From a virus: a DNA stretch of 36,771 bases. Of this stretch, positions 4,170 through 20,519 are shown piece after piece. The translations under genes and the position numbers were made by a program. The notes under the pieces are model-generated. The model was not told where the DNA came from. It worked only from the letters and a program-made list of their open reading frames with translations, and made no database searches. Positions within the stretch are counted from its first letter, which is position 1. Every line of letters starts with the position of its first letter. Where the stretch lies: the IMG/VR virus record IMGVR_UViG_3300010354_000238, positions 1 through 36,771 of that record. One strand, 5' to 3'.

Positions 4170-4205
4170 GTGTTAAATATATTATCCATAAATGAGGACA
4201 AGATT

Positions 4206-4709
4206 ATGACTAACAAATGTAAACGGGTTATAGCAATGTTCTTAATTGGCTTTTGTTTTCCGTTAGTAGCAATGACAACTACTTTAAACAGAAGTGCTGA
4301 AACTAAAGCAGCAACAATGAAGAATGTGTTATATTCATCTATCGTTTGGGTTGAGTCAAAAGGCAATGCAACCGCACGATCAAAGGATGGTTCACTTGGT
4401 ATAGTACAAATTTTACCAGTAATGGTGAAGGAAGTGAACCGAATCTGTAAAATGAAAGGTATAAATAAAACTTTTACTTTACAAGATAGGCTAAATCCTG
4501 AAAAGTCTGAACAAATGTTTTGGATTTTTCAGAATTTCTACAATCCCAACATTAACTGGGAAACCATCACAATGAGTGAGATGGAGATCATTGCACGGAA
4601 GTGGAATGGAGGTCCTAATGGACATAAAAAAGGTGCTACTCGGCACTACTGGAATAAAGTTTCAAAATTGGTCTATAAAGACCTAAAAGAAAAGGGTTTT
4701 AAGGTATAA
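4206..4709 (+). CDS. Exported SLT-type lytic transglycosylase
   Basis: The ATG at 4206 is preferred over 4170 because GAGGA lies about 8 bases before it. The product (167 residues) opens with a basic N-terminus and hydrophobic stretch, KRVIAMFLIGFCFPLVAM, a signal peptide or signal anchor. The catalytic domain has SSIVWVESKGN with the likely catalytic Glu50, then GSLGIVQIL (62-70; the GxxQ motif of SLT enzymes) and ARKWNGGPNG (130-139), equivalent to the AYNAG loop. It should cleave the MurNAc-GlcNAc glycan strand in the periplasm, so it is a good endolysin candidate, exported by the host secretion system without needing a holin. Expression is probably tightly controlled: promoter with operator, a long structured leader, and a 3' hairpin at 4728-4765. 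Confidence 0.8.
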   Translation: MTNKCKRVIAMFLIGFCFPLVAMTTTLNRSAETKAATMKNVLYSSIVWVESKGNATARSKDGSLGIVQILPVMVKEVNRICKMKGINKTFTLQDRLNPEKSEQMFWIFQNFYNPNINWETITMSEMEIIARKWNGGPNGHKKGATRHYWNKVSKLVYKDLKEKGFKV

Positions 4710-7132: not shown

Positions 7133-8038
7133 ATGAAACTCGGCTATGCCTGTATCAATATGACCTTATCAAAAGATAAGATTACCACCAATCGTTCAAT
7201 GATTAAGAAAACCTTTCTACAAAAAGGTATCAATTATTGTTCCGAACTTGCTCTCCTAAATGTTCGTGACATGGAAACCATACTCAAATGGAATGTTGAA
7301 AACGGTATCTATTTCTTCCGAACATCATCAAATGTATTTCCTTGGGGTTCCGAATATGATTTGGAAACATTACCAGATATTGCAGAAATCAAAACTGTTC
7401 TTAAACGAATTGGTGATTATTCAAAAAAACATGGGGTTCGTTTATCATGTCATCCTGGTCCTTTCAATGTTCTATGTTCACCGAATGATAATGTTGTTAA
7501 AAATACCATAATTGACTTGGAACTACATGGTAAAGTATTTGATATGATGGGATTATCACATACACCTTACAACAAAATCAATATACATTGTAATGGTGTT
7601 TACGGTGACAAAATTGCTTCAATTGACCGTTGGTGCCGTAATTTTCATCTATTGTCCGATAGTGTTCGTTCAAGACTTACTATTGAAAACGATGATAAAG
7701 CCAGTATGTATTCAGTCAAAGACCTTATGAAAATACATGAATCTGTGGGTATTCCTATTGTATTTGACTATCATCACCACCAATTCTGCACAGGTGACTT
7801 ATCCGAACAACAAGCACTTGAACTTGCCATTTCAACATGGCCAGATGGTATTACTCCAGTTGTTCATTATTCATCTTCAAAATTGAAAGAAACAAATAAT
7901 CCAAAAGAAAAACCACAAGCACACGCTGATTACATATTAGAAAAAATTAACACATACGGACATGATGTTGATATTATGTTAGAATGTAAAGCGAAAGAAT
8001 TAGCCCTCAAACAATACCTAACCGAATACGGAATTTAA
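7133..8038 (+). CDS. uvsE: UV damage endonuclease (UVDE family)
   Basis: A 301-residue protein with the UVDE TIM-barrel pattern: GYACINMTL (4-12), a strand with RTSSNVFPWG (63-72), SCHPGPFNVL (105-114), INIHCNGVYGDK (149-160), LTIENDD (182-188) and IVFDYHHHQF (209-218). Family metal ligands correspond to His and Glu/Asp residues such as H107, E185, D212 and H214. The enzyme nicks DNA 5' to UV photoproducts and starts alternative excision repair, protecting the phage genome from sunlight damage and suggesting a lit, possibly aquatic habitat (inference). It is read from its own host-type promoter. No ribosome binding site is evident, in contrast to most neighbours. Codon choice looks slightly less AT-biased than the structural genes. 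Confidence 0.92.
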   Translation: MKLGYACINMTLSKDKITTNRSMIKKTFLQKGINYCSELALLNVRDMETILKWNVENGIYFFRTSSNVFPWGSEYDLETLPDIAEIKTVLKRIGDYSKKHGVRLSCHPGPFNVLCSPNDNVVKNTIIDLELHGKVFDMMGLSHTPYNKINIHCNGVYGDKIASIDRWCRNFHLLSDSVRSRLTIENDDKASMYSVKDLMKIHESVGIPIVFDYHHHQFCTGDLSEQQALELAISTWPDGITPVVHYSSSKLKETNNPKEKPQAHADYILEKINTYGHDVDIMLECKAKELALKQYLTEYGI

Positions 8039-9217: not shown

Positions 9218-9232
9218 ATAATGGAGTTTTAT

Positions 9233-9901
9233 ATGGATCAATTCTATGATAATGAAAATGACAATGAAGTTCTTAAAGAAGAAACTTACATTGCAAAACC
9301 CAAAGATGCTGAAAACGATATTCCAGTTAGATGGAAAGAAGCAACAACTCAAATGGATTATGGAATTGATGTAGAAGCATCAACAATTCTGTTATTCGGC
9401 GAGATAATGGATGGTAGTTTATATGATATTATTACACGTATTCGTGCAATATTACACATGAGAACGGAAGAAAATAAAAATAATCCCATAAACCTAATTA
9501 TCAATTCCGATGGGGGTTCGGTATATGAAGCACTTGGTATAATAGATTATATGCAAAGTCTTGATGTTAAAGTTAATACAATTTGCAGAGGAAGGGCAAT
9601 GTCTGCTGCTGCTCTTATTCTTTGTGCAGGAACAGGTGTTCGTGCTGCTTCTCAATATAGCACTATTATGTTTCACGAAATAAGTTCAGACATTTACGGT
9701 AAATCATCCGATATGAAAGCTAATGTTCAACATATGGAAAAATTGGAAGAAATACTTTTGGAAATACTGAAATCAAATTCAAATAAAGATAAAGATTTTT
9801 GGAAAAATGTAACTATCAAAGATTATTATATCACACCAAAAGATGCATTAGACATGGGCGTTATAGATACTATAATTCCACCAAAACACAAAAGAGGTTG
9901 A
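9233..9901 (+). CDS. clpP: ClpP-like serine protease
   Basis: The ATG at 9233 is preferred over 9221 because GGAG lies 6-9 bases before it; the product is 222 residues. The ClpP/crotonase fold is clear: NLIINSDGGSVYEALGIIDY (87-106), then CRGRAMSAAALILCAGT (118-134) with nucleophile Ser124, IMFHEIS (145-151) with His148, and KDYYITPKDALDMGVID (196-212) with Asp197 as the third triad member. All three catalytic residues are therefore present. The first ~40 residues are an acidic extension beyond the usual ClpP. Phage ClpP-like enzymes often act as prohead proteases near capsid genes, but here it lies next to a sigma factor, so a regulatory or host-directed role with host ClpX-like partners is possible. 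Confidence 0.88.
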   Translation: MDQFYDNENDNEVLKEETYIAKPKDAENDIPVRWKEATTQMDYGIDVEASTILLFGEIMDGSLYDIITRIRAILHMRTEENKNNPINLIINSDGGSVYEALGIIDYMQSLDVKVNTICRGRAMSAAALILCAGTGVRAASQYSTIMFHEISSDIYGKSSDMKANVQHMEKLEEILLEILKSNSNKDKDFWKNVTIKDYYITPKDALDMGVIDTIIPPKHKRG

Positions 9902-11014: not shown

Positions 11015-11389
11015 ATGAAATTTGATACTGAAATATTTGGTAATAAAAAATTTTCTGATTTACTCAAAGACATTTATGATAATCAGAAGAAAAAAGACCG
11101 TCAAATAAATCTTTTGATTGCCGACTTAAAACCTATGTTAAATAACATAAGTGATGCTGCTATATTAGTACCGGCAATAAAAGATTTTATGGAAGTTGGT
11201 GTTAAGAATGACGAACATTTGGTAAAATTAGCTGCAGTTATACAACGTGCAATGGGCGATAAAGGCGAAGAATCTTCCTCATTCTTAACTGATGAAGAAA
11301 AAGAAGCTCTATTAAAGGGTATTCAAGAAATTCAAGAAGATCAAGAGGAAAACGAAATTGGCACACAGTCCCCAAAAAATTCTGGTTAA
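11015..11389 (+). CDS. Small helical protein next to the sigma factor
   Basis: A 124-residue protein, largely alpha-helical, with FSDLLKDIYDNQKKKDRQIN (13-32), ISDAAILVPAIKDFMEVGVK (45-64) and an acidic tail rich in Glu and Gln. It has no membrane segment. The size and position next to a gp55-like gene suggest a late-transcription partner like T4 gp33, but I see no diagnostic residues, so this is only a hypothesis. The ATG has no clear ribosome binding site; ATATTTAT lies 5 bases before it. The next gene starts inside its last 32 bases with a TTG. Confidence 0.5.
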   Translation: MKFDTEIFGNKKFSDLLKDIYDNQKKKDRQINLLIADLKPMLNNISDAAILVPAIKDFMEVGVKNDEHLVKLAAVIQRAMGDKGEESSSFLTDEEKEALLKGIQEIQEDQEENEIGTQSPKNSG

Positions 11390-12584
11390 TGGAGTAGAAC
11401 ACGATTTATACCCTGCACAGGTTATTTCGGTAGATTATTCTGGATACAATAAAGAATATCTTTATTCTATTAGATGTACTCTCATAGGTCCTTACATGAC
11501 ATTAGATCCTTCAAATGTTATTGTTGCAAAACCATTAGATGTTAATATAAAAAATATACCAATATCTGGTGAGATTGTTATGATAATGAGGGCACCAAAT
11601 GCATACAACTCACCTGGTAGAAATTCATCCGATTATTATTATACAAATGCAGTTTCACTCCAAGGATCCGTTCACCATAACGGTTTGCCTGGTATGACAG
11701 AATTTATACCACTAAAAAACACCTCAAATCAAGAAACAAGAACAAATGCAGAAGATGGTATAACAGTAAATTCAAGTGAACTGGAAGAAGTTACAAGTAC
11801 AATAGATCAATTTTTTCCAGAAAGATTAGATGTCTACCCATTACAACCTTATCCCGGAGATATATTGATTGAAGGAAGATTTGGCCAATCAATAAGGTTA
11901 GGATCCACAATAAATGAAGATACACGATACCCACTATCACCGTATTGGAAAGATGGAACTGGTGCTTCTGGAAATCCAATAATAATAATTTCAAATGGTA
12001 CGAACCCAAAAAGAGGAATGCCGTATAATTCTTTTATATTAGAAAATATAGATGAAGATGATTCTGGTATATGGTTAACATCTGGTCAGTCGGTATCATT
12101 CACTCCTGGATCTAAATTTTTCTCATCAATTCAAGATAAAGGCGTTGATTTATACAGAAGAAATGGTTATGCAGGAAACCAAGCAATTATTGCTTCTGAT
12201 AGAATAATATTAAATGCAAGAAAACAAGAATTGATTGGATTCAGCAGTGAAGGTATTGCATTTTCATCAGACAAAATATTTTCAATAGATTCAAGAAATT
12301 TATTTGAATTAGAAAGTCAAAGAATAAATCTTGGATTAAATGCAGAAGAACCTGTGTTATTAGGAAATACAACTGCAGATTGGTTTAATGATTTATGTGA
12401 TGTACTAAAACAAATGATTACTGAAATAAAAGCAATAACAGTACCAACAGGAGTTGGACCTTCTGGAATGCCAATAAATTCTCCAAATTTTACAAAAATA
12501 AATTCAAATGTTCAAGGACTTGTAGATAGAATTGAAGATTTAAAATCACAATTAGTTTTTTTAAATAAAAATTCATCATCTTAA
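11358..12584 (+). CDS. Baseplate central spike/hub-associated protein (gp5/gpV-like)
   Basis: A 408-residue protein with a TTG start, preceded by GAGGA. The N-terminal half looks like the OB-fold of T4 gp5 or P2 gpV: GEIVMIMRAPNAYN (about 72-85), then YYYTNAVSLQGSVHHNGLPG. The middle has DILIEGRFGQSIRLGST (169-185). The C-terminal half is repetitive, with strands such as AIIASDRIILNARKQEL and GIAFSSDKIFSIDSRNLFEL, as expected of a trimeric beta-helix spike, followed by a helical end. The lysozyme domain of gp5 is absent; wall-cutting is supplied by the next three genes. The protein probably forms the membrane-piercing tip below the tail tube. Confidence 0.75.
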   Translation: MAHSPQKILVNGVEHDLYPAQVISVDYSGYNKEYLYSIRCTLIGPYMTLDPSNVIVAKPLDVNIKNIPISGEIVMIMRAPNAYNSPGRNSSDYYYTNAVSLQGSVHHNGLPGMTEFIPLKNTSNQETRTNAEDGITVNSSELEEVTSTIDQFFPERLDVYPLQPYPGDILIEGRFGQSIRLGSTINEDTRYPLSPYWKDGTGASGNPIIIISNGTNPKRGMPYNSFILENIDEDDSGIWLTSGQSVSFTPGSKFFSSIQDKGVDLYRRNGYAGNQAIIASDRIILNARKQELIGFSSEGIAFSSDKIFSIDSRNLFELESQRINLGLNAEEPVLLGNTTADWFNDLCDVLKQMITEIKAITVPTGVGPSGMPINSPNFTKINSNVQGLVDRIEDLKSQLVFLNKNSSS

Positions 12585-12597
12585 ATGGAGAACAACA

Positions 12598-14289
12598 TTG
12601 AACGGAGAAATAAAAAAAGAAAATGCAAATGTAACCGAAGAAGATTTGGTAAAATTAACAATATCCAATAAAAAAACAACCGTTATTGATGTACGAACAG
12701 ATTTTGTAACAAGTGAATCCGATAAAAGAAATCTTATATTATCAGAATACAATGAATATAAAAGAAAAATAGATTATCCTTGGGAAGAAAATGCTGCATC
12801 AAAACCAAAAAGAAAGAATCCACTAAAAAAAATTGTAACAGTACCGGCTGCCGTTCAATCAAATATACCAATATATCGTCCAGGAATGTCAAGAGGGTTT
12901 GGTGGTTATAGTTATGTTGGATCAAATATATCAGCCGTTAGTGATTCTTTTGGAGGATCTGGAAACGCAATTGGAACTCGTTATCAAGAAGGAAAGTATG
13001 GCATAATAAAATTTTCTGATACATACAAGGACGGTCCACTTATATTTGTTGTTGGTGGTGTTAAAATTGAAGAAAAAACTTGGGAACCAGGAATGCCAAA
13101 TGCAAAACATAAAGAAGGTTATATGTGGGAACAAGGTTTTAATAATCTAAATAATTTTCACGTGTATATTTGTAAAACAGCATCCAATGTCACAAGCGCA
13201 TGGAAAGAATGTTTATCTATTTTAAGTTCAAAATCAATAACAATTACTAAAAAAATAATGGTTGGTTTTTCTCTTGGTGCATTTACAATGCATGAAGTTT
13301 TTAAACTAGAACCTGCTTCAAATTGGAGTATAATACATATCGTTGGACCATATATGCCAAATCCAGGAGATGCAAAAAAACACGTTAATATGATTAACGG
13401 TTTACCAGAACGTGGAAGAGTTTTTTATTTTCAAGTTGGTGGATTAGATAAAGCAACAGAAGGAGCAACCGTTGCAAATAAAAAAGCAATAGGTGACTTA
13501 TTTCTTGCTTCACCCAACAATATAATAAACACAACTACACATAATCCAGATGGTCCTTTCAAATCATCTTCATGGATTAAACAAAATATAAAATTAAGCG
13601 GTACAACTGTTATTACACAAGGTGGAAAACGTGTTGTTGTACAAGTAACTTCTGGTAATCCAATACCTGATACTGGTGCCAAATGGAAAGGTGATTCTGG
13701 AACAAAAGAAAAAGCAACACCTTTCAATCCTCAATCAAACGGTGGAAGACTTATACAAAATTATAGACCAATACCAGATGGAACAGGTCATAAATCTTGG
13801 TCATTCGTAATGATGCCTGGAGCAAAAACAGTTGATGATGTTCAAGGTAAACCAATACCATATGAAAATGGTAATTTACCTAATAATGTGTTATTAAAAG
13901 TTGAAGGAGAATGTACAGCACAAACTTGTTTAATGTATTATACTGCAGTATCTGCATATCTTGCAATGAAAAATGCTGCAGCCAAAGAGGGTGTAGTAAT
14001 AAGATATTCAAATTGTTATAGACCATTACAAATACAACTTAATAATTGGAAAAAAAATCCAAATCCCCAAAAAGTTGCAAAACCTGAATATAGAAATGGA
14101 AAATGGGTTGGTACTTCAAATCATGGATTGGGTAAAGCAATAGATGTTTCTTATTATCCATCAAGATTTAAGCTAACACATCAACAACAAATGGATGCAC
14201 AAAAATGGATTGCCATAAATGGTGGAAGATTTGGATGGTATTGGGGAGATGCACCAAGCGAAGATTGGCATTTTGTTTATGTATTATGA
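12598..14289 (+). CDS. Baseplate cell-wall enzyme 1: docking module, alpha/beta hydrolase-like, M15 peptidase
   Basis: A 563-residue protein, TTG start with TGGAGA about 8 bases upstream. Residues 29-64 contain VIDVRTDF and DYPWEE, part of a linker shared with the next two proteins. Residues about 120-330 resemble an alpha/beta hydrolase: a FVVGGV strand and the nucleophile elbow GFSLGA (223-228, Ser225), with a possible acid/His further on. Residues about 430-563 are a VanY-type M15 peptidase: RYSNCYRP, SNHGLGKAID (507-516, zinc ligands His509 and Asp516) and EDWHF (His558). It should cleave D-Ala or stem-peptide bonds of peptidoglycan; the substrate of the middle domain is unknown (an ester or acetyl group is possible). 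It acts outside the cell or in the periplasm during infection. Confidence 0.8.
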   Translation: MNGEIKKENANVTEEDLVKLTISNKKTTVIDVRTDFVTSESDKRNLILSEYNEYKRKIDYPWEENAASKPKRKNPLKKIVTVPAAVQSNIPIYRPGMSRGFGGYSYVGSNISAVSDSFGGSGNAIGTRYQEGKYGIIKFSDTYKDGPLIFVVGGVKIEEKTWEPGMPNAKHKEGYMWEQGFNNLNNFHVYICKTASNVTSAWKECLSILSSKSITITKKIMVGFSLGAFTMHEVFKLEPASNWSIIHIVGPYMPNPGDAKKHVNMINGLPERGRVFYFQVGGLDKATEGATVANKKAIGDLFLASPNNIINTTTHNPDGPFKSSSWIKQNIKLSGTTVITQGGKRVVVQVTSGNPIPDTGAKWKGDSGTKEKATPFNPQSNGGRLIQNYRPIPDGTGHKSWSFVMMPGAKTVDDVQGKPIPYENGNLPNNVLLKVEGECTAQTCLMYYTAVSAYLAMKNAAAKEGVVIRYSNCYRPLQIQLNNWKKNPNPQKVAKPEYRNGKWVGTSNHGLGKAIDVSYYPSRFKLTHQQQMDAQKWIAINGGRFGWYWGDAPSEDWHFVYVL

Positions 14290-14298
14290 GGTATTATC

Positions 14299-15963
14299 AT
14301 GGACAAAGATGTAAAAAAAGATACTGTTAAAATGACCAATAATGATCAAAAATCATTACGAGAACAAAATACTGTAACTATTCCAAAAATAGTTGTTGTT
14401 GATGACAGAACAGATTTTCCTAGTGGTGATGATTATTTAAAAGTAACAAACGAATATGATAGACAATTTAATACATACAGACCTGAATATCCGTGGGAAG
14501 ATTTTATGTCAATAAATGAAGGCATTCCTGAAGATAAATCAAAAGAAGAAATAGATGAAAATAAAGAAAAAAAATATAGAGTTGGTAAAGAAAGAATAAT
14601 AAGAAGAAGAAAGGCAAAATTAAAAAATATAAAATCAACACTTGGAATACCAGTATCAAAAGATTATTCATACATTCCAATTGGTGTATCCAGAGCAACC
14701 GCTTTTATTTATAGTTCAGGTGCAGGTGGAGTATCCGGAAGAATTGGAACAGATATTGGTTATGCCGGTATGGCATCAGCAGGATTTACACCAGATCTTT
14801 CAAAAAAAGAATCACAAAAAGAAATAAATTATGTTCAAAATAATTGGAATAATGCTGTTAATTCGTGTGGAAAATTTGGATTTGATCCTATTGTAGAATT
14901 AGCACAAGGAGCTGAAGAAAGTGGTTGGGGTAAATCACCCCTTGCACTTGAAGGAAATGGGTTTTTTGGAATAAAAGGTTCAGGATCACCAAATGAATAT
15001 TGGACTGGAACAAAAAGAGGTGCATTTAGAACATATACATCAGTTCAAAATTCATTTTATGATCATGGGAGGTTAATAAGTTCAAAATATAAAGATGCTT
15101 ATGCTGCAGCTAAACGTGATTACAAAGAATATGCACACGCTATTGCATATAGTGGATATATTGTTGATGGGGATGGAAGACCACAATACGAAAAAAAAAT
15201 AAAAAATTTATATGAAACTGTATACAAAATTGCAATTCAATTAAAGCTTTTTGATCCAGCAAATGCACAAAAAATTGCAACTCAACAGGCAGCAAAAAGT
15301 TCATTAAATAGTGGAACTGGAAAAGTTGTTACACCAACCGGTGCTTCGGCAGCAGATATTCCAGACCTTAATGAAAAAAGACCTCCCGTGTATAAAAATC
15401 CAATGATTCCAAACGGAAGACCATCATCGACACGTGAACAGATAGTAAAATTAACAAATAACTATTCTGGATACCCATACATTGTAGGACTTCGTGGATA
15501 TTTTAATGAATCAGGAAGACCTGGAAAAAATGATAGAGGATTATACGATGATGCAATATTTTTTGTAACATCAACTCAAATGTTTGCATTTAATGCAAAT
15601 ACTGATCCAGGATGGTATGGATACAATGCGGATGTAGATACACAAGACGGAGTTGCTACATTAAAAGAAGGTGTTTGGGAATATAAAATTGGTAGACATA
15701 ACGGTTCTGTTCCACACGAAGCATTGATACAACATGGAAACTTTACTGTTTATAGAGACGGTGATCCAAGAGCAAAAGCTAAAAGAAAAAGAGAACATAC
15801 AGGATATTTTGGTATAAATTTACATAGAGGTGGATCTAAATCAGTTTCATCTTCAGGATGTCAAACTATACCACCTAGTCAATGGAATGAATTTTTTTAT
15901 GGATTGGTAAAAAAACAAGTAAACAAAGGACAAATAATAAAATATTTCTTATTTAAGGTATGA
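14299..15963 (+). CDS. Baseplate cell-wall enzyme 2: docking module, glucosaminidase, L,D-transpeptidase-like
   Basis: A 554-residue protein with GAGG before the ATG. Docking module: VVVDDRTDF (32-40), EYPWEDF (63-69), RRRKAKLKN (102-110), DYSYIPIGVS (122-131). Residues about 175-315 are a FlgJ/LytG-type glucosaminidase: FDPIVELAQGAEESGWGKSP (195-214) with probable catalytic Glu207, NGFFGIKG (220-227) and a later GGY-like YSGYIVDGDGRPQY. Residues about 385-554 form a second domain with GINLHRGG (505-512) and SSSGCQTIP (517-525), the His...SxGC pattern of YkuD-type L,D-transpeptidases (His509, Ser519, Cys521). The first domain should cut glycan strands. The second may cut or remodel 3-3 crosslinks or act as an amidase-like relative; its chemistry is inferred. 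Confidence 0.8.
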   Translation: MDKDVKKDTVKMTNNDQKSLREQNTVTIPKIVVVDDRTDFPSGDDYLKVTNEYDRQFNTYRPEYPWEDFMSINEGIPEDKSKEEIDENKEKKYRVGKERIIRRRKAKLKNIKSTLGIPVSKDYSYIPIGVSRATAFIYSSGAGGVSGRIGTDIGYAGMASAGFTPDLSKKESQKEINYVQNNWNNAVNSCGKFGFDPIVELAQGAEESGWGKSPLALEGNGFFGIKGSGSPNEYWTGTKRGAFRTYTSVQNSFYDHGRLISSKYKDAYAAAKRDYKEYAHAIAYSGYIVDGDGRPQYEKKIKNLYETVYKIAIQLKLFDPANAQKIATQQAAKSSLNSGTGKVVTPTGASAADIPDLNEKRPPVYKNPMIPNGRPSSTREQIVKLTNNYSGYPYIVGLRGYFNESGRPGKNDRGLYDDAIFFVTSTQMFAFNANTDPGWYGYNADVDTQDGVATLKEGVWEYKIGRHNGSVPHEALIQHGNFTVYRDGDPRAKAKRKREHTGYFGINLHRGGSKSVSSSGCQTIPPSQWNEFFYGLVKKQVNKGQIIKYFLFKV

Positions 15964-15967
15964 TAAC

Positions 15968-17656
15968 ATGGAAGAAGAAATAAAAGATAATGGTATACAA
16001 ACTGGATATTTAGAAAGAGTTGATCCTCCAAGAGGTTATGGATCTCAGTTACGTCCTATAATAAATTTTGAAAAAGATAAAATAAATGAAAATGTTGAAT
16101 ATTTTTGTTCTTCCGATTTAAAAGGAAATTCATTTGGAATATCAACACAAATGCACAAAAGTTCTGTTTATATTGATTCTAATATAGAACAAGAATTATA
16201 CAAAGATTTTAAATTAAATGGACCATACAATATAGTTGGTTCACACAATCACCCAAATCACTCGGCTTTTTCAGATACAGATATTAACACTTTTATTGCT
16301 AGAAATTTTGAAATAGAATTAAGAGCTTGTGGAAAATTTTATACTCATGTTGTTCAAAAACCAAAAAACAGATTGAATAATTTAAAAGTACGCGATCAAT
16401 TTTTTAACGATTTTGTATGCAATCCAGATCCAAACGTAACCGTTAGGTTAGAAAGAGTTTGGAGAAGTCAAGAAATGTATTGGTACAGACGATGGAGACA
16501 ACTAGGTGAAAAGTCTGGAATAAAATTAAACCCAAAGTTTGAAAATGATCCAGAATATTCTATTTTTATGGAAACAAGTCATAAAGCAATAAAACAAATA
16601 TGTGAAACATATGGTATATTGTATTCAAGATACGAAACTGAATCTGGAGAAAATGTTGAAAATCAAGAAATTAAAGACAATAAAGTAGATATTGATGAAA
16701 CTGATATAAATTCATTATCTGAAATGAACAATATAGTAAAAATAGAACCTAAAAAAGTTGTTATTGATGATAGATACGATATTCTTACGCCATTAGATAC
16801 GAGAGATCTTGATTATGAGTTGACAATGTTTAGAAGACCATATCCTTTTGAAGATTATTCATCTTTTAATAAGAAAAAAATACAAGAAAAAAAAGAAGAA
16901 TACGAAAAAAATGGAATAGATGAAAAAACAAAAACAATAATAGAAACAAGAAATTTAACGGTAAGAAGAAAAGCAAAAATAAAAGGAGCTGCAGATATAG
17001 TTGGTGGTATAACACAAAGAAAAGATTATTCATATATTCCAATTGGTAGAACTTTTGGGATGGGTGGTTATGGATTAACTGTATTTGGTGGTACTGGTAC
17101 AAATGCTCCTTATACTGGAGGAAGAACTAAAAGTGGAAAATTACAGTATGATAAAGCAACAGAATCAAATAATGGTTGGGGTGTATTACCAAAAGAAATA
17201 CAAAGTCAATACATGGTTTCAGAAAGAATTCCAGGTTTAAAACCATACATTACTTGTAGAAAAGAAGTTTTACCAATTCTTTACAATTTAATGTATGATT
17301 TACATAAATCAGTTGAACCAATGGTAAGTACAAGTTGTTTTAATTTTAGAAAAATACGTGATGGTTCAACCACATGGAGTTGTCATGCAAGTGGTACTGC
17401 TATAGATTACAACCATAGAAAACATCCACATCATAAAGCAAATACTTTTAATTCAACACAAGTTGCTCAAATCCAAAAATTGATAAAAAGATATGGTTGT
17501 AGATGGGGTGGAAATTACGGAGGAACATCTGTTGATGATATGCATTTTGAAGTATGGATGACTGAAACAGAAACACAATTACATATACAAAAATTAAATT
17601 TAGTTGATAGAATGAATAAAATAAAATCTGGTATTAACGTTCCAGTTGAAGTTTAA
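15968..17656 (+). CDS. Baseplate cell-wall enzyme 3: JAB/MPN domain, docking module, M15 peptidase
   Basis: A 562-residue protein, AAGG upstream of the ATG. Residues 42-130 form a JAB/MPN metalloprotease-like domain with YNIVGSHNHPNHSAFSDTDI (87-106): His93, His95, Ser102 and Asp105 match JAMM ligands, but the spacing between His95 and Ser102 is one residue shorter than the common HxHx7SxxD. Residues 263-366 hold the shared module (VVIDDRYDI, RPYPFEDYSS, VRRKAKIKG, DYSYIPIGRT). Residues about 400-540 are an M15 peptidase of the L-Ala-D-Glu/CwlK type: SCHASGTAIDYN (471-482; His473, Asp480) and DDMHFEVW (523-530; His526). JAB domains of lambda K-type tail proteins process tail tips, so the N-terminus may act in assembly and the C-terminus on the wall. 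Confidence 0.8.
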   Translation: MEEEIKDNGIQTGYLERVDPPRGYGSQLRPIINFEKDKINENVEYFCSSDLKGNSFGISTQMHKSSVYIDSNIEQELYKDFKLNGPYNIVGSHNHPNHSAFSDTDINTFIARNFEIELRACGKFYTHVVQKPKNRLNNLKVRDQFFNDFVCNPDPNVTVRLERVWRSQEMYWYRRWRQLGEKSGIKLNPKFENDPEYSIFMETSHKAIKQICETYGILYSRYETESGENVENQEIKDNKVDIDETDINSLSEMNNIVKIEPKKVVIDDRYDILTPLDTRDLDYELTMFRRPYPFEDYSSFNKKKIQEKKEEYEKNGIDEKTKTIIETRNLTVRRKAKIKGAADIVGGITQRKDYSYIPIGRTFGMGGYGLTVFGGTGTNAPYTGGRTKSGKLQYDKATESNNGWGVLPKEIQSQYMVSERIPGLKPYITCRKEVLPILYNLMYDLHKSVEPMVSTSCFNFRKIRDGSTTWSCHASGTAIDYNHRKHPHHKANTFNSTQVAQIQKLIKRYGCRWGGNYGGTSVDDMHFEVWMTETETQLHIQKLNLVDRMNKIKSGINVPVEV

Positions 17657-17725
17657 TAAAACAAACAATTTTGGTGTATTTTGATATTTATAGTTTTACA
17701 AACAATATATTAGGTGGTTATTTAT

Positions 17726-18127
17726 ATGAATGCAAAAAGTTTTTTTGGTAAAATTCGTGAAATAATACGAGAAGAAATAGAATATGCTTTAGAAAAAAAG
17801 ATAAATGAACAAAGCATAGGAAAAATTGTTGAATCAAAAATTACACAAAAACCTAAAAAATCGGTAAAAAAATCAATTTCTTCTGGAGATTATTCAAATA
17901 TACAAGATTTATTGAATGAAACACGAAGAAGTTTACAAGAAAGTATGGAATATGATGATGAAATGATGTTTACATCGGATATGGCACAAAATTTTAATGG
18001 AATAAAACAAAATAGTGTAATACCAAATGGTTACTCAAAAGAAGATGTTCCTGAAGAAGTTATGTCTGCTCTTACAAAAAATTATTCTGCTCTTATGAAA
18101 AAGATAGACGAAAAGAAAGGGAGATAA
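17726..18127 (+). CDS. Small conserved baseplate-region protein
   Basis: The ATG at 17726 is chosen over a GTG at 17714 because the GTG lies within the likely ribosome binding site (TAGGTGG). The protein has 133 residues. Its N-terminus is a charged helix (FFGKIREIIREEIEYALEKK) and later blocks are YSNIQDLLNETRRSLQES and PEEVMSALTKNYSALMKKID. No enzyme motif is seen. Its position directly before gp25 and 70 bases after the third enzyme, with an ATATTTAT octamer at 17684-17691 upstream, places it in the baseplate module; it may be a wedge assembly protein. I do not recognise it as T4 gp53. Confidence 0.6.
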   Translation: MNAKSFFGKIREIIREEIEYALEKKINEQSIGKIVESKITQKPKKSVKKSISSGDYSNIQDLLNETRRSLQESMEYDDEMMFTSDMAQNFNGIKQNSVIPNGYSKEDVPEEVMSALTKNYSALMKKIDEKKGR

Positions 18128-18130
18128 TAA

Positions 18131-18619
18131 TTGGTTAAAAATAGACGTAAAATATATCAAGAATTAAATACACAACCGTCTGGTAGTCAATTAAGAGATT
18201 TAAAACCAATTGGTGTTTCAATACCTTTTAATGCAGAAAAAGGTGTTTTTAATCAAACATATACGAATACTGCTCAAGTAATTGAAAATTTGCGTAATCT
18301 TTTACAAACACATAAAGGTGAAAGAATAATGCAACCAGAGTTTGGAACAGATATTCATTATTATCTTTTTGAGCCAGTAGTCGATGAAGATTCTTTTAAA
18401 GAAAGAATAATGGGAGAAATATCTGCTGCTATAAGCAAGTGGATGCCTTATATTGCAATACAATCATCAGAAATTATTACAGATCCCCAAAATGATGCAA
18501 GATTTTCTGATAAAAGATATTCATTGGTAATTAGAATAAGAATATACATAATCAGTACAAACATATATTTACCAATAACATTAGGAATTACTGAATCTGG
18601 TAATTTTGATATTACATGA
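18131..18619 (+). CDS. gp25: Baseplate wedge protein gp25/gpW-like
   Basis: A 162-residue protein with a TTG start and GGGAG 5-9 bases before it. It matches the gp25/gpW lysozyme-like baseplate family: PIGVSIPFNAEKGVFNQTYT (26-45), then VIENLRNLLQTHKGERIMQP (50-69), EFGTDIHYYLFEP (70-82) and a C-terminal strand region ending in TESGNFDI. In T4 this sheath-initiator protein joins the wedge to the first sheath disc and is a hallmark of contractile systems. It lies 10 bases before gp6, the standard order in many myoviruses. Slightly longer than P2 gpW and T4 gp25. Confidence 0.92.
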   Translation: MVKNRRKIYQELNTQPSGSQLRDLKPIGVSIPFNAEKGVFNQTYTNTAQVIENLRNLLQTHKGERIMQPEFGTDIHYYLFEPVVDEDSFKERIMGEISAAISKWMPYIAIQSSEIITDPQNDARFSDKRYSLVIRIRIYIISTNIYLPITLGITESGNFDIT

Positions 18620-18629
18620 GGAAAATTAA

Positions 18630-20519
18630 ATGTCAGACTTATTAAAAAAAGATATAAGGTATTTAGGTAGAGATTTTAACTCTATAAAGTCTAATTTAAT
18701 TGACTTTGCTAAAACATATTTTCCAAATACTTATCAAGATTTTAATGAATCATCACCTGGAATGATGTTTTTGGAAATGGCTGCCTATGTTGGTGATGTT
18801 CTTTCTTATTACACAGATGTAACATTACAAGAATCTATGATAACCCATGCAGCTGAAAGACAAAATATAATAAATATTGCACAGTCTATGGGTTACATTC
18901 CAAGAAATAAAATTGCTTCTGTTGTTAGATTAAATGTTTTTCAATTATTACCATCGGTTGATGACGGATATGGAATTATGATGCCAGACTGGAGATATGC
19001 ACTTGCAATAAATGAAGGAATGACTGTATCTTCAAAAGCAACATCAAATTTATTTAGAACAACCGAATATATTGATTTTAAATTTAGTAGTAGTTTAGAT
19101 CCAACAGAAGTTACTCCATTTGAAATAAATGATGTAACAGGAGAAGTAGAGTTTTGGCTCGTTAAAAAATCAGTAAACGCAGTTTCAGGCAATGTTATCA
19201 ACCGTTCATTCCAATTTGGAGATGTTGTTCCTTATCAAAAAATAACACTTGAAGAACCAAATTTGATAGAAATTTTATATGGTATAGATAGTGACGGCAA
19301 TAAGTGGTATAATGTTCCATATTTGGCACAAGATACAATATTTGAATCGGTTCCAAACATACCAAGAAATGATAAATTTTTAAGTTCAGATAGAGGAGCT
19401 ACACCATATCTTTTAAAGTTAAGAAGAATACCAAGAAGATTTACTTCAAGACAAATTTTAGATGGAACGTTTGAGTTACAATTTGGATCCGGTGTAACTA
19501 ATTTTAATGAAGAATTATTGATACCAAATCCAGATTTAATAGGAAGTGCACTAAATAATATAACAAGTGGATTTTCAAATGAATTAAATCCTGCAAATTT
19601 TCTTTATACAAAGAGTTATGGTATAGCTCCAAGTAATACCAACATTTCAATATATTATAGTGTTGGTGGTGGTACTGCGGATAATGTTGCAAGTGATACT
19701 ATAAATAAAATAAATTCAAAACAAATTTTAGTAGATGAAACCGGTTTAGATTCCGTTTTATATCAAAGAGTATTAAATAGTCTTGCTGTTACAAATCCAG
19801 AACCTGCTAGTGGTGGTAAAAATGCTGATGATTTAGAAGAAATAAGACAAAATGCAATAGCTCAATTTGCATCACAAAATAGAGCAGTTACAAAAGAAGA
19901 TTATATTATACGAGCATATAGTCTTCCTTCAAAATTTGGTTCAATATCAAAAGCATATGTTGTAAAAGATACAGAACTTTCATATAATATGACAAGTGCT
20001 AATAATTTTTTACAAAATCAATTTGGTTTAAGTTTTTATGTACTTGGATATGATAGAAATAATAAATTAACTACTGTAAATAATGCAACAAAAGAAAACT
20101 TAAAAACATACCTTGATCAATACAGAATGCTTACAGACGCAATTACAATCAAAGATGCATACATAATAAACATAGGCGTTGAATTTGAAATAGTAACAAG
20201 ACCAAATGAAAATGGTAATCAAGTAATTTTAAAATGTATTCAAAAATTAAAAGATTATTTTGATGTTAAAAAATGGCAAATAAATCAACCAGTTGTAGTT
20301 AGCAATCTTTACACGGAATTAGATAAAATTGATGGTGTTCAAACCGTTGTTAATATTAAAATAAATAATTTACACGATGAATCTCTTGGATATTCAAAAT
20401 ATATTTATGACATAAATGCAGCAACAAAAGATGGTATATTGTTTCCCTCTTTAGATCCTTCAATGTTTGAAATAAAATATCCAGATAATGATATAATTGG
20501 TAAATCAAGGACATACTAA
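18630..20519 (+). CDS. gp6: Baseplate wedge protein gp6/gpJ-like
   Basis: A 629-residue protein, close to T4 gp6 in size, with GAGGAAA before the ATG. The N-terminus is typical: IRYLGRDFNSIKSNLIDFAK (9-28), FNESSPGMMFLEMAAYVGDV (38-57) and SYYTDVTLQESMITHAAERQ (59-78), the dimerising region of gp6/gpJ. The middle carries NADDLEEIRQNAIAQFASQN and AVTKEDYIIRA, conserved in gpJ-type wedge proteins. Six or more wedge copies build the iris-like ring that triggers sheath contraction. The stop overlaps the next ATG by one base. Confidence 0.92.
   Translation: MSDLLKKDIRYLGRDFNSIKSNLIDFAKTYFPNTYQDFNESSPGMMFLEMAAYVGDVLSYYTDVTLQESMITHAAERQNIINIAQSMGYIPRNKIASVVRLNVFQLLPSVDDGYGIMMPDWRYALAINEGMTVSSKATSNLFRTTEYIDFKFSSSLDPTEVTPFEINDVTGEVEFWLVKKSVNAVSGNVINRSFQFGDVVPYQKITLEEPNLIEILYGIDSDGNKWYNVPYLAQDTIFESVPNIPRNDKFLSSDRGATPYLLKLRRIPRRFTSRQILDGTFELQFGSGVTNFNEELLIPNPDLIGSALNNITSGFSNELNPANFLYTKSYGIAPSNTNISIYYSVGGGTADNVASDTINKINSKQILVDETGLDSVLYQRVLNSLAVTNPEPASGGKNADDLEEIRQNAIAQFASQNRAVTKEDYIIRAYSLPSKFGSISKAYVVKDTELSYNMTSANNFLQNQFGLSFYVLGYDRNNKLTTVNNATKENLKTYLDQYRMLTDAITIKDAYIINIGVEFEIVTRPNENGNQVILKCIQKLKDYFDVKKWQINQPVVVSNLYTELDKIDGVQTVVNIKINNLHDESLGYSKYIYDINAATKDGILFPSLDPSMFEIKYPDNDIIGKSRTY

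Follow-up and report, generated by a model that had tools for sequence, protein, structure and literature searches.

Three consecutive genes of a 36,771-nt virus fragment (IMGVR_UViG_3300010354_000238; the whole fragment is called the window here) encode proteins p1, p2 and p3, which possess one homologous module joined to different enzyme-like heads. The same module was found on further heads in related phages, always in proteins encoded between a spike-like gene and a small conserved gene. We consider it fairly probable that the module, which is short and probably disordered, acts as a docking tag by which exchangeable wall enzymes are tethered at a common place on the tail. The most likely position is the spike, the hub or the inner wedge in the centre of the baseplate, and p1-p3 would be located in the virion.

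Organization of the locus and enzyme heads

The ORFs of p1, p2 and p3 are co-directional with 4 to 13 bp between them. They are situated in a strand-consistent run which leads from the spike-like ORF through p1-p3 to gp25-like and gp6-like ORFs. The features are as follows.

11358..12584, + strand: spike-like protein, upstream border of the slot, seen again upstream of gp25-gp6 in relatives
12598..14289, + strand: p1, N-terminal module, alpha/beta-hydrolase-like domain and VanY-type peptidase
12598..12795, + strand: p1 module core (residues 1-66), hold-out profile E 1.4e-7
14299..15963, + strand: p2, N-terminal module, glucosaminidase and C-terminal PHROG 3000 domain
14299..14703, + strand: p2 module (residues 1-135), with EIKKE-type start, DxxxLxE, VDDRTDF, YPWED, RRKAK and DYSYIPIG
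15968..17656, + strand: p3, JAB-like domain, internal module and M15_4 peptidase
16661..17065, + strand: p3 module (residues 232-366), from BLASTP, alignment and hold-out profile
17714..18127, + strand: small conserved protein, downstream border of the slot, with helical N terminus and ALTxxYSALMKKIxEKKGR C terminus
18131..18619, + strand: gp25-like baseplate wedge protein, PF04965 E 7e-12
18630..20519, + strand: gp6-like baseplate wedge protein, phrog_219 E 2e-25, 63% identity to a Mel-JY01 protein

Six different enzyme-like domains had been counted in p1-p3 by an earlier sequence-only reading, which is overstated. Three of them have Pfam support and two of these three are M15-type peptidases. 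VanY in p1 (PF02557, E 2e-11) and M15_4 in p3 (PF13539, E 1e-10) are above the Pfam cut-off, and the metal-ligand motifs of M15-type heads are present (SNHGLGKAID...DWHF and CHASGTAID...DMHF), while the glucosaminidase of p2 (PF01832, E 2e-20) scored 74 bits against a cut-off of 30. The other three domains carry enzyme-like labels from motifs only. The alpha/beta-hydrolase-like middle domain of p1 possesses a GxSxG elbow (GFSLG), and 9 homologs all keep Ser103 and His193 (alignment numbering); no Pfam or structure match gives the domain a name. The N-terminal region of p3 contains HxH...FSxxD, a JAB/MPN-type motif invariant in 3 homologs; AlphaFold pLDDT is low there and no match was found in Pfam or solved structures. 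The C-terminal domain of p2 matches phrog_3000 (E 5e-23), a PHROG family without assigned function, and shows an H...SxGC motif which we take to resemble that of L,D-transpeptidases. This domain (window 15451-15960) shares 47% identity with a segment of a hypothetical protein from Bdellovibrio phage phi1422 (JQ177062 44920-45264). Solved-structure searches with the p2 C-terminus, the JAB-like region, the spike and the C-terminal region of p3 gave nothing convincing. The heads of p1-p3 would act as peptidoglycan-cutting enzymes.

The adjacent spike lacks the module according to BLASTP and the module profile, and no lysozyme domain was detectable in it by Pfam search, both as the sequence-only reading had claimed; Pfam and PHROG searches for any enzyme domain in it gave zero matches. 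The small protein at the other border and its homologs have conserved ends (IRxIIREEIEYAL, ALTxxYSALMKKIxEKKGR) and a variable middle. These ends are kept in nearly all relatives, with slot genes present or absent, and the protein resembles a two-ended linker.

Extent and predicted structure of the common module

Sequence comparison between the three proteins was strongest for p2 and p3, which showed 34% identity over 166 residues in BLASTP (E 3e-15 to 4e-13, about 1e-15). The E value was 2e-5 for p1 and p2, and the match of p1 with p3 was weak (E 0.09 to 1.5). Smith-Waterman Z scores against 2000 shuffles were 21 (p2/p3), 8.0 (p1/p2) and 4.8 (p1/p3). A hold-out profile constructed from the modules of other phages only, with p1-p3 and the L089 orthologs excluded, matched p2 (3.9e-14), p3 (1.7e-13) and p1 (1.4e-7), and the next ORF scored 0.22. 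BLASTP, shuffle scores and hold-out profile thus bear out a homologous module common to p1, p2 and p3.

The module is N-terminal in p1 and p2 and internal in p3, as had been read, but it begins ahead of the residues given, near residue 1 of p1 and p2 and at residue 232 of p3. It is composed, in order, of M(D/N)xEIKKE...DxxxLxE, standing ahead of (V/I)DDRxD, then RxxYPWE and, in p2 and p3, RRKAK and DYSYIPIG. K6, E22, D35, R61, W66 and E67 are nearly invariant across module paralogs which share 26-35% identity. The assignment of RRKAK and DYSYIPIG to two of the proteins holds for p2 and p3, but p1 has an eroded second half (KPKRKNPLKK...SNIPIY) reaching about residue 95, which is recognized as such because the p1 ortholog of L089 has an intermediate form (RRKNPLK...GDFSNIPM). 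The placement of the p3 module after a JAB domain is right as to its internal position (residues 232-366), but the domain in front is JAB-like by motif only. EIKDN occurs twice in p3, in the protein start MEEEIKDNG (15968-16000) and in the internal module start NQEIKDNK (16661-16690), as if the JAB-like part was inserted behind, or fused to, another module start.

The charge fraction is 0.38-0.39 in the module and 0.17-0.26 in the rest of the proteins. The charge-hydropathy rule draws a boundary between ordered and disordered chains, and the modules fall on its disordered side. AlphaFold models of p2 (19 rows) and p3 (14 rows) had mean pLDDT of 48 and 40, with helices 14-20 and 43-60 of the p2 module at about 55-72; the low confidence in the module is uninformative because the known enzyme domains scored low too. 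The sequence-only reading had held that disordered linkers without a common fold would speak against docking. Composition does point to disorder, but the AlphaFold models are too poor for a verdict on the fold. With moderate confidence, we regard the module as a linear tag with short helices and not as a folded domain. A disordered tag may still dock as a linear motif; the word 'domain' is therefore replaced by 'tag', and docking is not refuted.

Distribution and evolution in related phages

The variability of the module alignment precluded its use for scanning a collection, and relatives were therefore sought through gp6 and through a DNA pattern for RRPx(Y/F)PWE. Scans of viral contigs with gp6 reached 154 loci, and the loci of the annotated phages Mel-JY01, LR756508 and Flavobacterium phage immuto were added. 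The DNA pattern returned solely contigs of loci already in hand. The 5 kb region gave no match in a direct DNA search of annotated phages, the module alone gave chance matches only against annotated phages in tblastn, a scan of viral contigs for exact p2 peptides gave no match, and no relative was found in genome contigs searched for a host-linked copy with gp6.

All complete loci inspected have the gene order spike, slot, small protein, gp25, gp6. The slot, from spike to small protein, may be empty or contain up to four genes, whose lengths differ greatly. The module profile matched 22 of 3653 ORFs, all of them slot proteins, and no other ORF passed the threshold; the profile was partly trained on its own matched proteins, and independent support comes from the hold-out profile. 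In the gp6 tree, the module-bearing loci formed one clade with support 1.0. All complete slot proteins of this clade (19/19) possess the module, and by profile it is absent from every non-slot ORF of the examined loci. Its heads include VanY, M15_4, glucosaminidase, PHROG 3000, Phage_lysozyme2 (L006, L086, L091, L092), NAGPA (L091, L092), an SLT-like head with a weak SLT match, and a domain of L096 without profile match. The recurrence on other enzymes outside this phage, proposed earlier as a check, was therefore found in the slot proteins of related phages, and the idea of one conserved module with different enzymatic heads holds for p1-p3 and relatives alike. In L092, an N-terminal module directly precedes an M15_4 head, which is the layout of p3 minus JAB; because of this protein, p3 probably originated by addition of the JAB part in front of a module-M15_4 protein. 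Outside the module clade, the slots of L012, L017, L110, L118, L125 and L149 encode far larger proteins (up to about 1600 residues). Their domains are of CHAP, GH19, NAGPA-like and M15 type, and long TGG or SGT repeats occur in some of them.

Sister phages, Microcystis phage Mel-JY01 included, have one slot protein per genome with a shorter, related-looking N-terminal tag. It is an acidic stretch with K(L/I)(L/I)EY and DDxRxDxF. SGT or TGG repeats often come next, and the head after them is GH19-like, CHAP or M15. This order of motif, repeats and enzyme looks like the layout of a tethered tag. The Mel-JY01 (PP395634) slot protein WWT39505.1 begins with TEEEVIKIIDF...LTDDRFDSYTDF, followed by a chitinase-like head. 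It resembles the window proteins in its slot and in the N-terminal core motif before an enzyme head, but it has the short core motif only, a single enzyme and no YPWE and RRKAK parts. A core profile trained outside the module clade found L096 and L097 (E 7e-4 to 2e-3; best non-slot 0.11), while p2 and p3 scored like background with it. Homology of the sister tag to the window modules through L096/L097 is plausible, as a transitive link of moderate strength. A regular expression for the short motif matched 26 of 40 slot ORFs against 47 of 1022 other ORFs; this enrichment is descriptive, because the expression was designed after the sequences had been viewed and the count includes them.

The module is under purifying selection. 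Among the pairs compared, dN/dS was 0.06-0.54 in the first part of the module, and it reached 0.67-0.80 in the second half (window against L089, with rough synonymous estimates). Two L096 paralogs with unrelated heads share 71% module identity at dN/dS 0.17, and between L096 and L097 dN/dS was 0.06 in the module against 0.40 in the adjoining linker. In the p3 genes of L089 and L093, nucleotide identity is 95-100% along the module core and falls to 55-58% right after RRKAK, the pattern expected of an exchange there. The module is read as recombining at its RRKAK segment in this one allele pair. Between the window and L089, the module core is 41-49% identical and most enzyme domains 65-70%. Modules cluster mostly by head type and not by genome, and mean module identity is 0.35 within and 0.33 between genomes. 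The duplications are therefore old, and co-adaptation particular to one genome does not show. Concerted evolution among the modules of a genome was considered and found support in L096_2/L096_3 only.

Proposed function, rival explanations and known systems

In the proposed mechanism, each slot gene between spike and gp25 would contribute the tag with a different catalytic head, which is the arrangement observed. Recombination would swap the heads and purifying selection would keep the tag, as seen in one pair of alleles and one pair of paralogs. The anchors EIKKE, DxxxLxE, DDRxD and RxxYPWE may bind a tail component during assembly, and several enzymes on one virion could then cut the wall at entry, the role of the lysozyme domain of T4 gp5. 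The lack of genome-specific co-adaptation and the internal module of p3 were counted against docking. Comparison of the termini of spike and small protein across relatives revealed no co-occurring partner; both proteins are also present in relatives without slot genes, and co-occurrence therefore does not mark either as the partner.

Three other explanations were weighed. It is unlikely that the module reflects descent only, as a leftover of duplication, a flexible spacer or a recombination platform without binding function. The grouping of modules by head type, a core which evolves faster than most heads and the recombination break at RRKAK would suit it, but the six nearly invariant residues, dN/dS below 1 everywhere and below the adjoining linker where comparable, and retention in every complete slot protein of the gp6 clade speak against it. 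A charged, apparently disordered N-terminal tag on unrelated enzymes might instead be a loading signal into the lumen of the tail tube or hub; injection would then set the enzymes free, and they would not sit on the baseplate surface. There is a precedent in the N-terminal signal peptides which load payloads into the tube of the Photorhabdus virulence cassette (PMC11495950). The likeness covers a short N-terminal tag, unrelated cargo and a contractile tail-like machine, but tube loading is shown there, and one tag of the window is internal. Membership among such cargo leaders would also imply a dedicated AAA ATPase for tube loading. The tag is N-terminal in p1, p2 and the proteins of relatives, and internal in p3 and its orthologs. 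With this internal tag, and with heads of about 550 residues in two folded domains which would be large for a tube lumen, we regard loading as quite unlikely.

For several heads, the matching PHROG families carry endolysin annotations, and p1-p3 could in principle be lysis enzymes which the tag targets inside the dying host cell. This is highly improbable, as the genes lie 4-13 bp apart inside the spike-gp25-gp6 operon, the position of the slot is conserved among relatives, and endolysin labels reflect catalytic fold, not location.

The docking tag can be compared with known tail-borne enzymes. T4 gp5 is a spike with an internal lysozyme domain. The likeness consists in wall-cutting with the central spike, presumed here, and in a gene near gp25 and gp6 homologs; the difference is that no enzyme domain is detectable in the spike here and the enzymes form separate proteins, p1-p3. 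In the Anabaena myophage A-1(L), the hub protein gp15 unites lysozyme, endoglucanase and peptidase domains in one chain (PMC10966104). If the location proposed here is right, both phages would have several hydrolytic domains at their baseplate hub, but those of the window are separate tagged ORFs and not fused to the hub. Klebsiella phage receptor-binding proteins possess an N-terminal anchor and an exchangeable depolymerase (PMC8262889). A conserved N-terminal structural part, a variable enzymatic part and modular exchange are shared, but sequences, tail position and target differ (capsule there, peptidoglycan here), and several tagged paralogs adjoin in the window. The slot proteins thus have an N-terminal-anchor modular architecture, with one conserved non-catalytic part on different catalytic heads. 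The principle is known, and the tag family is apparently new with respect to the open-access literature searched.

If the tag docks, phages without a spike lysozyme could swap wall enzymes fast with the baseplate unchanged, and unannotated phage genomes could be searched for virion enzymes with a short portable sequence; in metagenomic contigs, the module profile already flags slot proteins which have no other name. Only tentatively do we extend this to a large aquatic lineage with a linear-motif socket. Its hypervariable slot would supply up to three separate wall enzymes per genome, which one disordered tag would bring as a mixed, exchangeable set to one baseplate site, and the sister LLEY...DDRxDxF tag would be the ancestral single-enzyme form.

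Other ORFs of the window were also noted. A 179-aa ORF (4170-4709) has weak endolysin/transglycosylase PHROG matches (E 2e-5 to 1e-3) and is possibly a separate lysis enzyme. An endonuclease-like ORF of 301 aa (7133-8038; PHROG 8420, E 5e-56) is situated ahead of the structural genes. The ORF at 9221-9901 is a homolog of the ClpP-like head maturation protease (PHROG 94, E 2e-34), and Mel-JY01 has a homolog of this protease at an equivalent relative position (L003 6269-6952).
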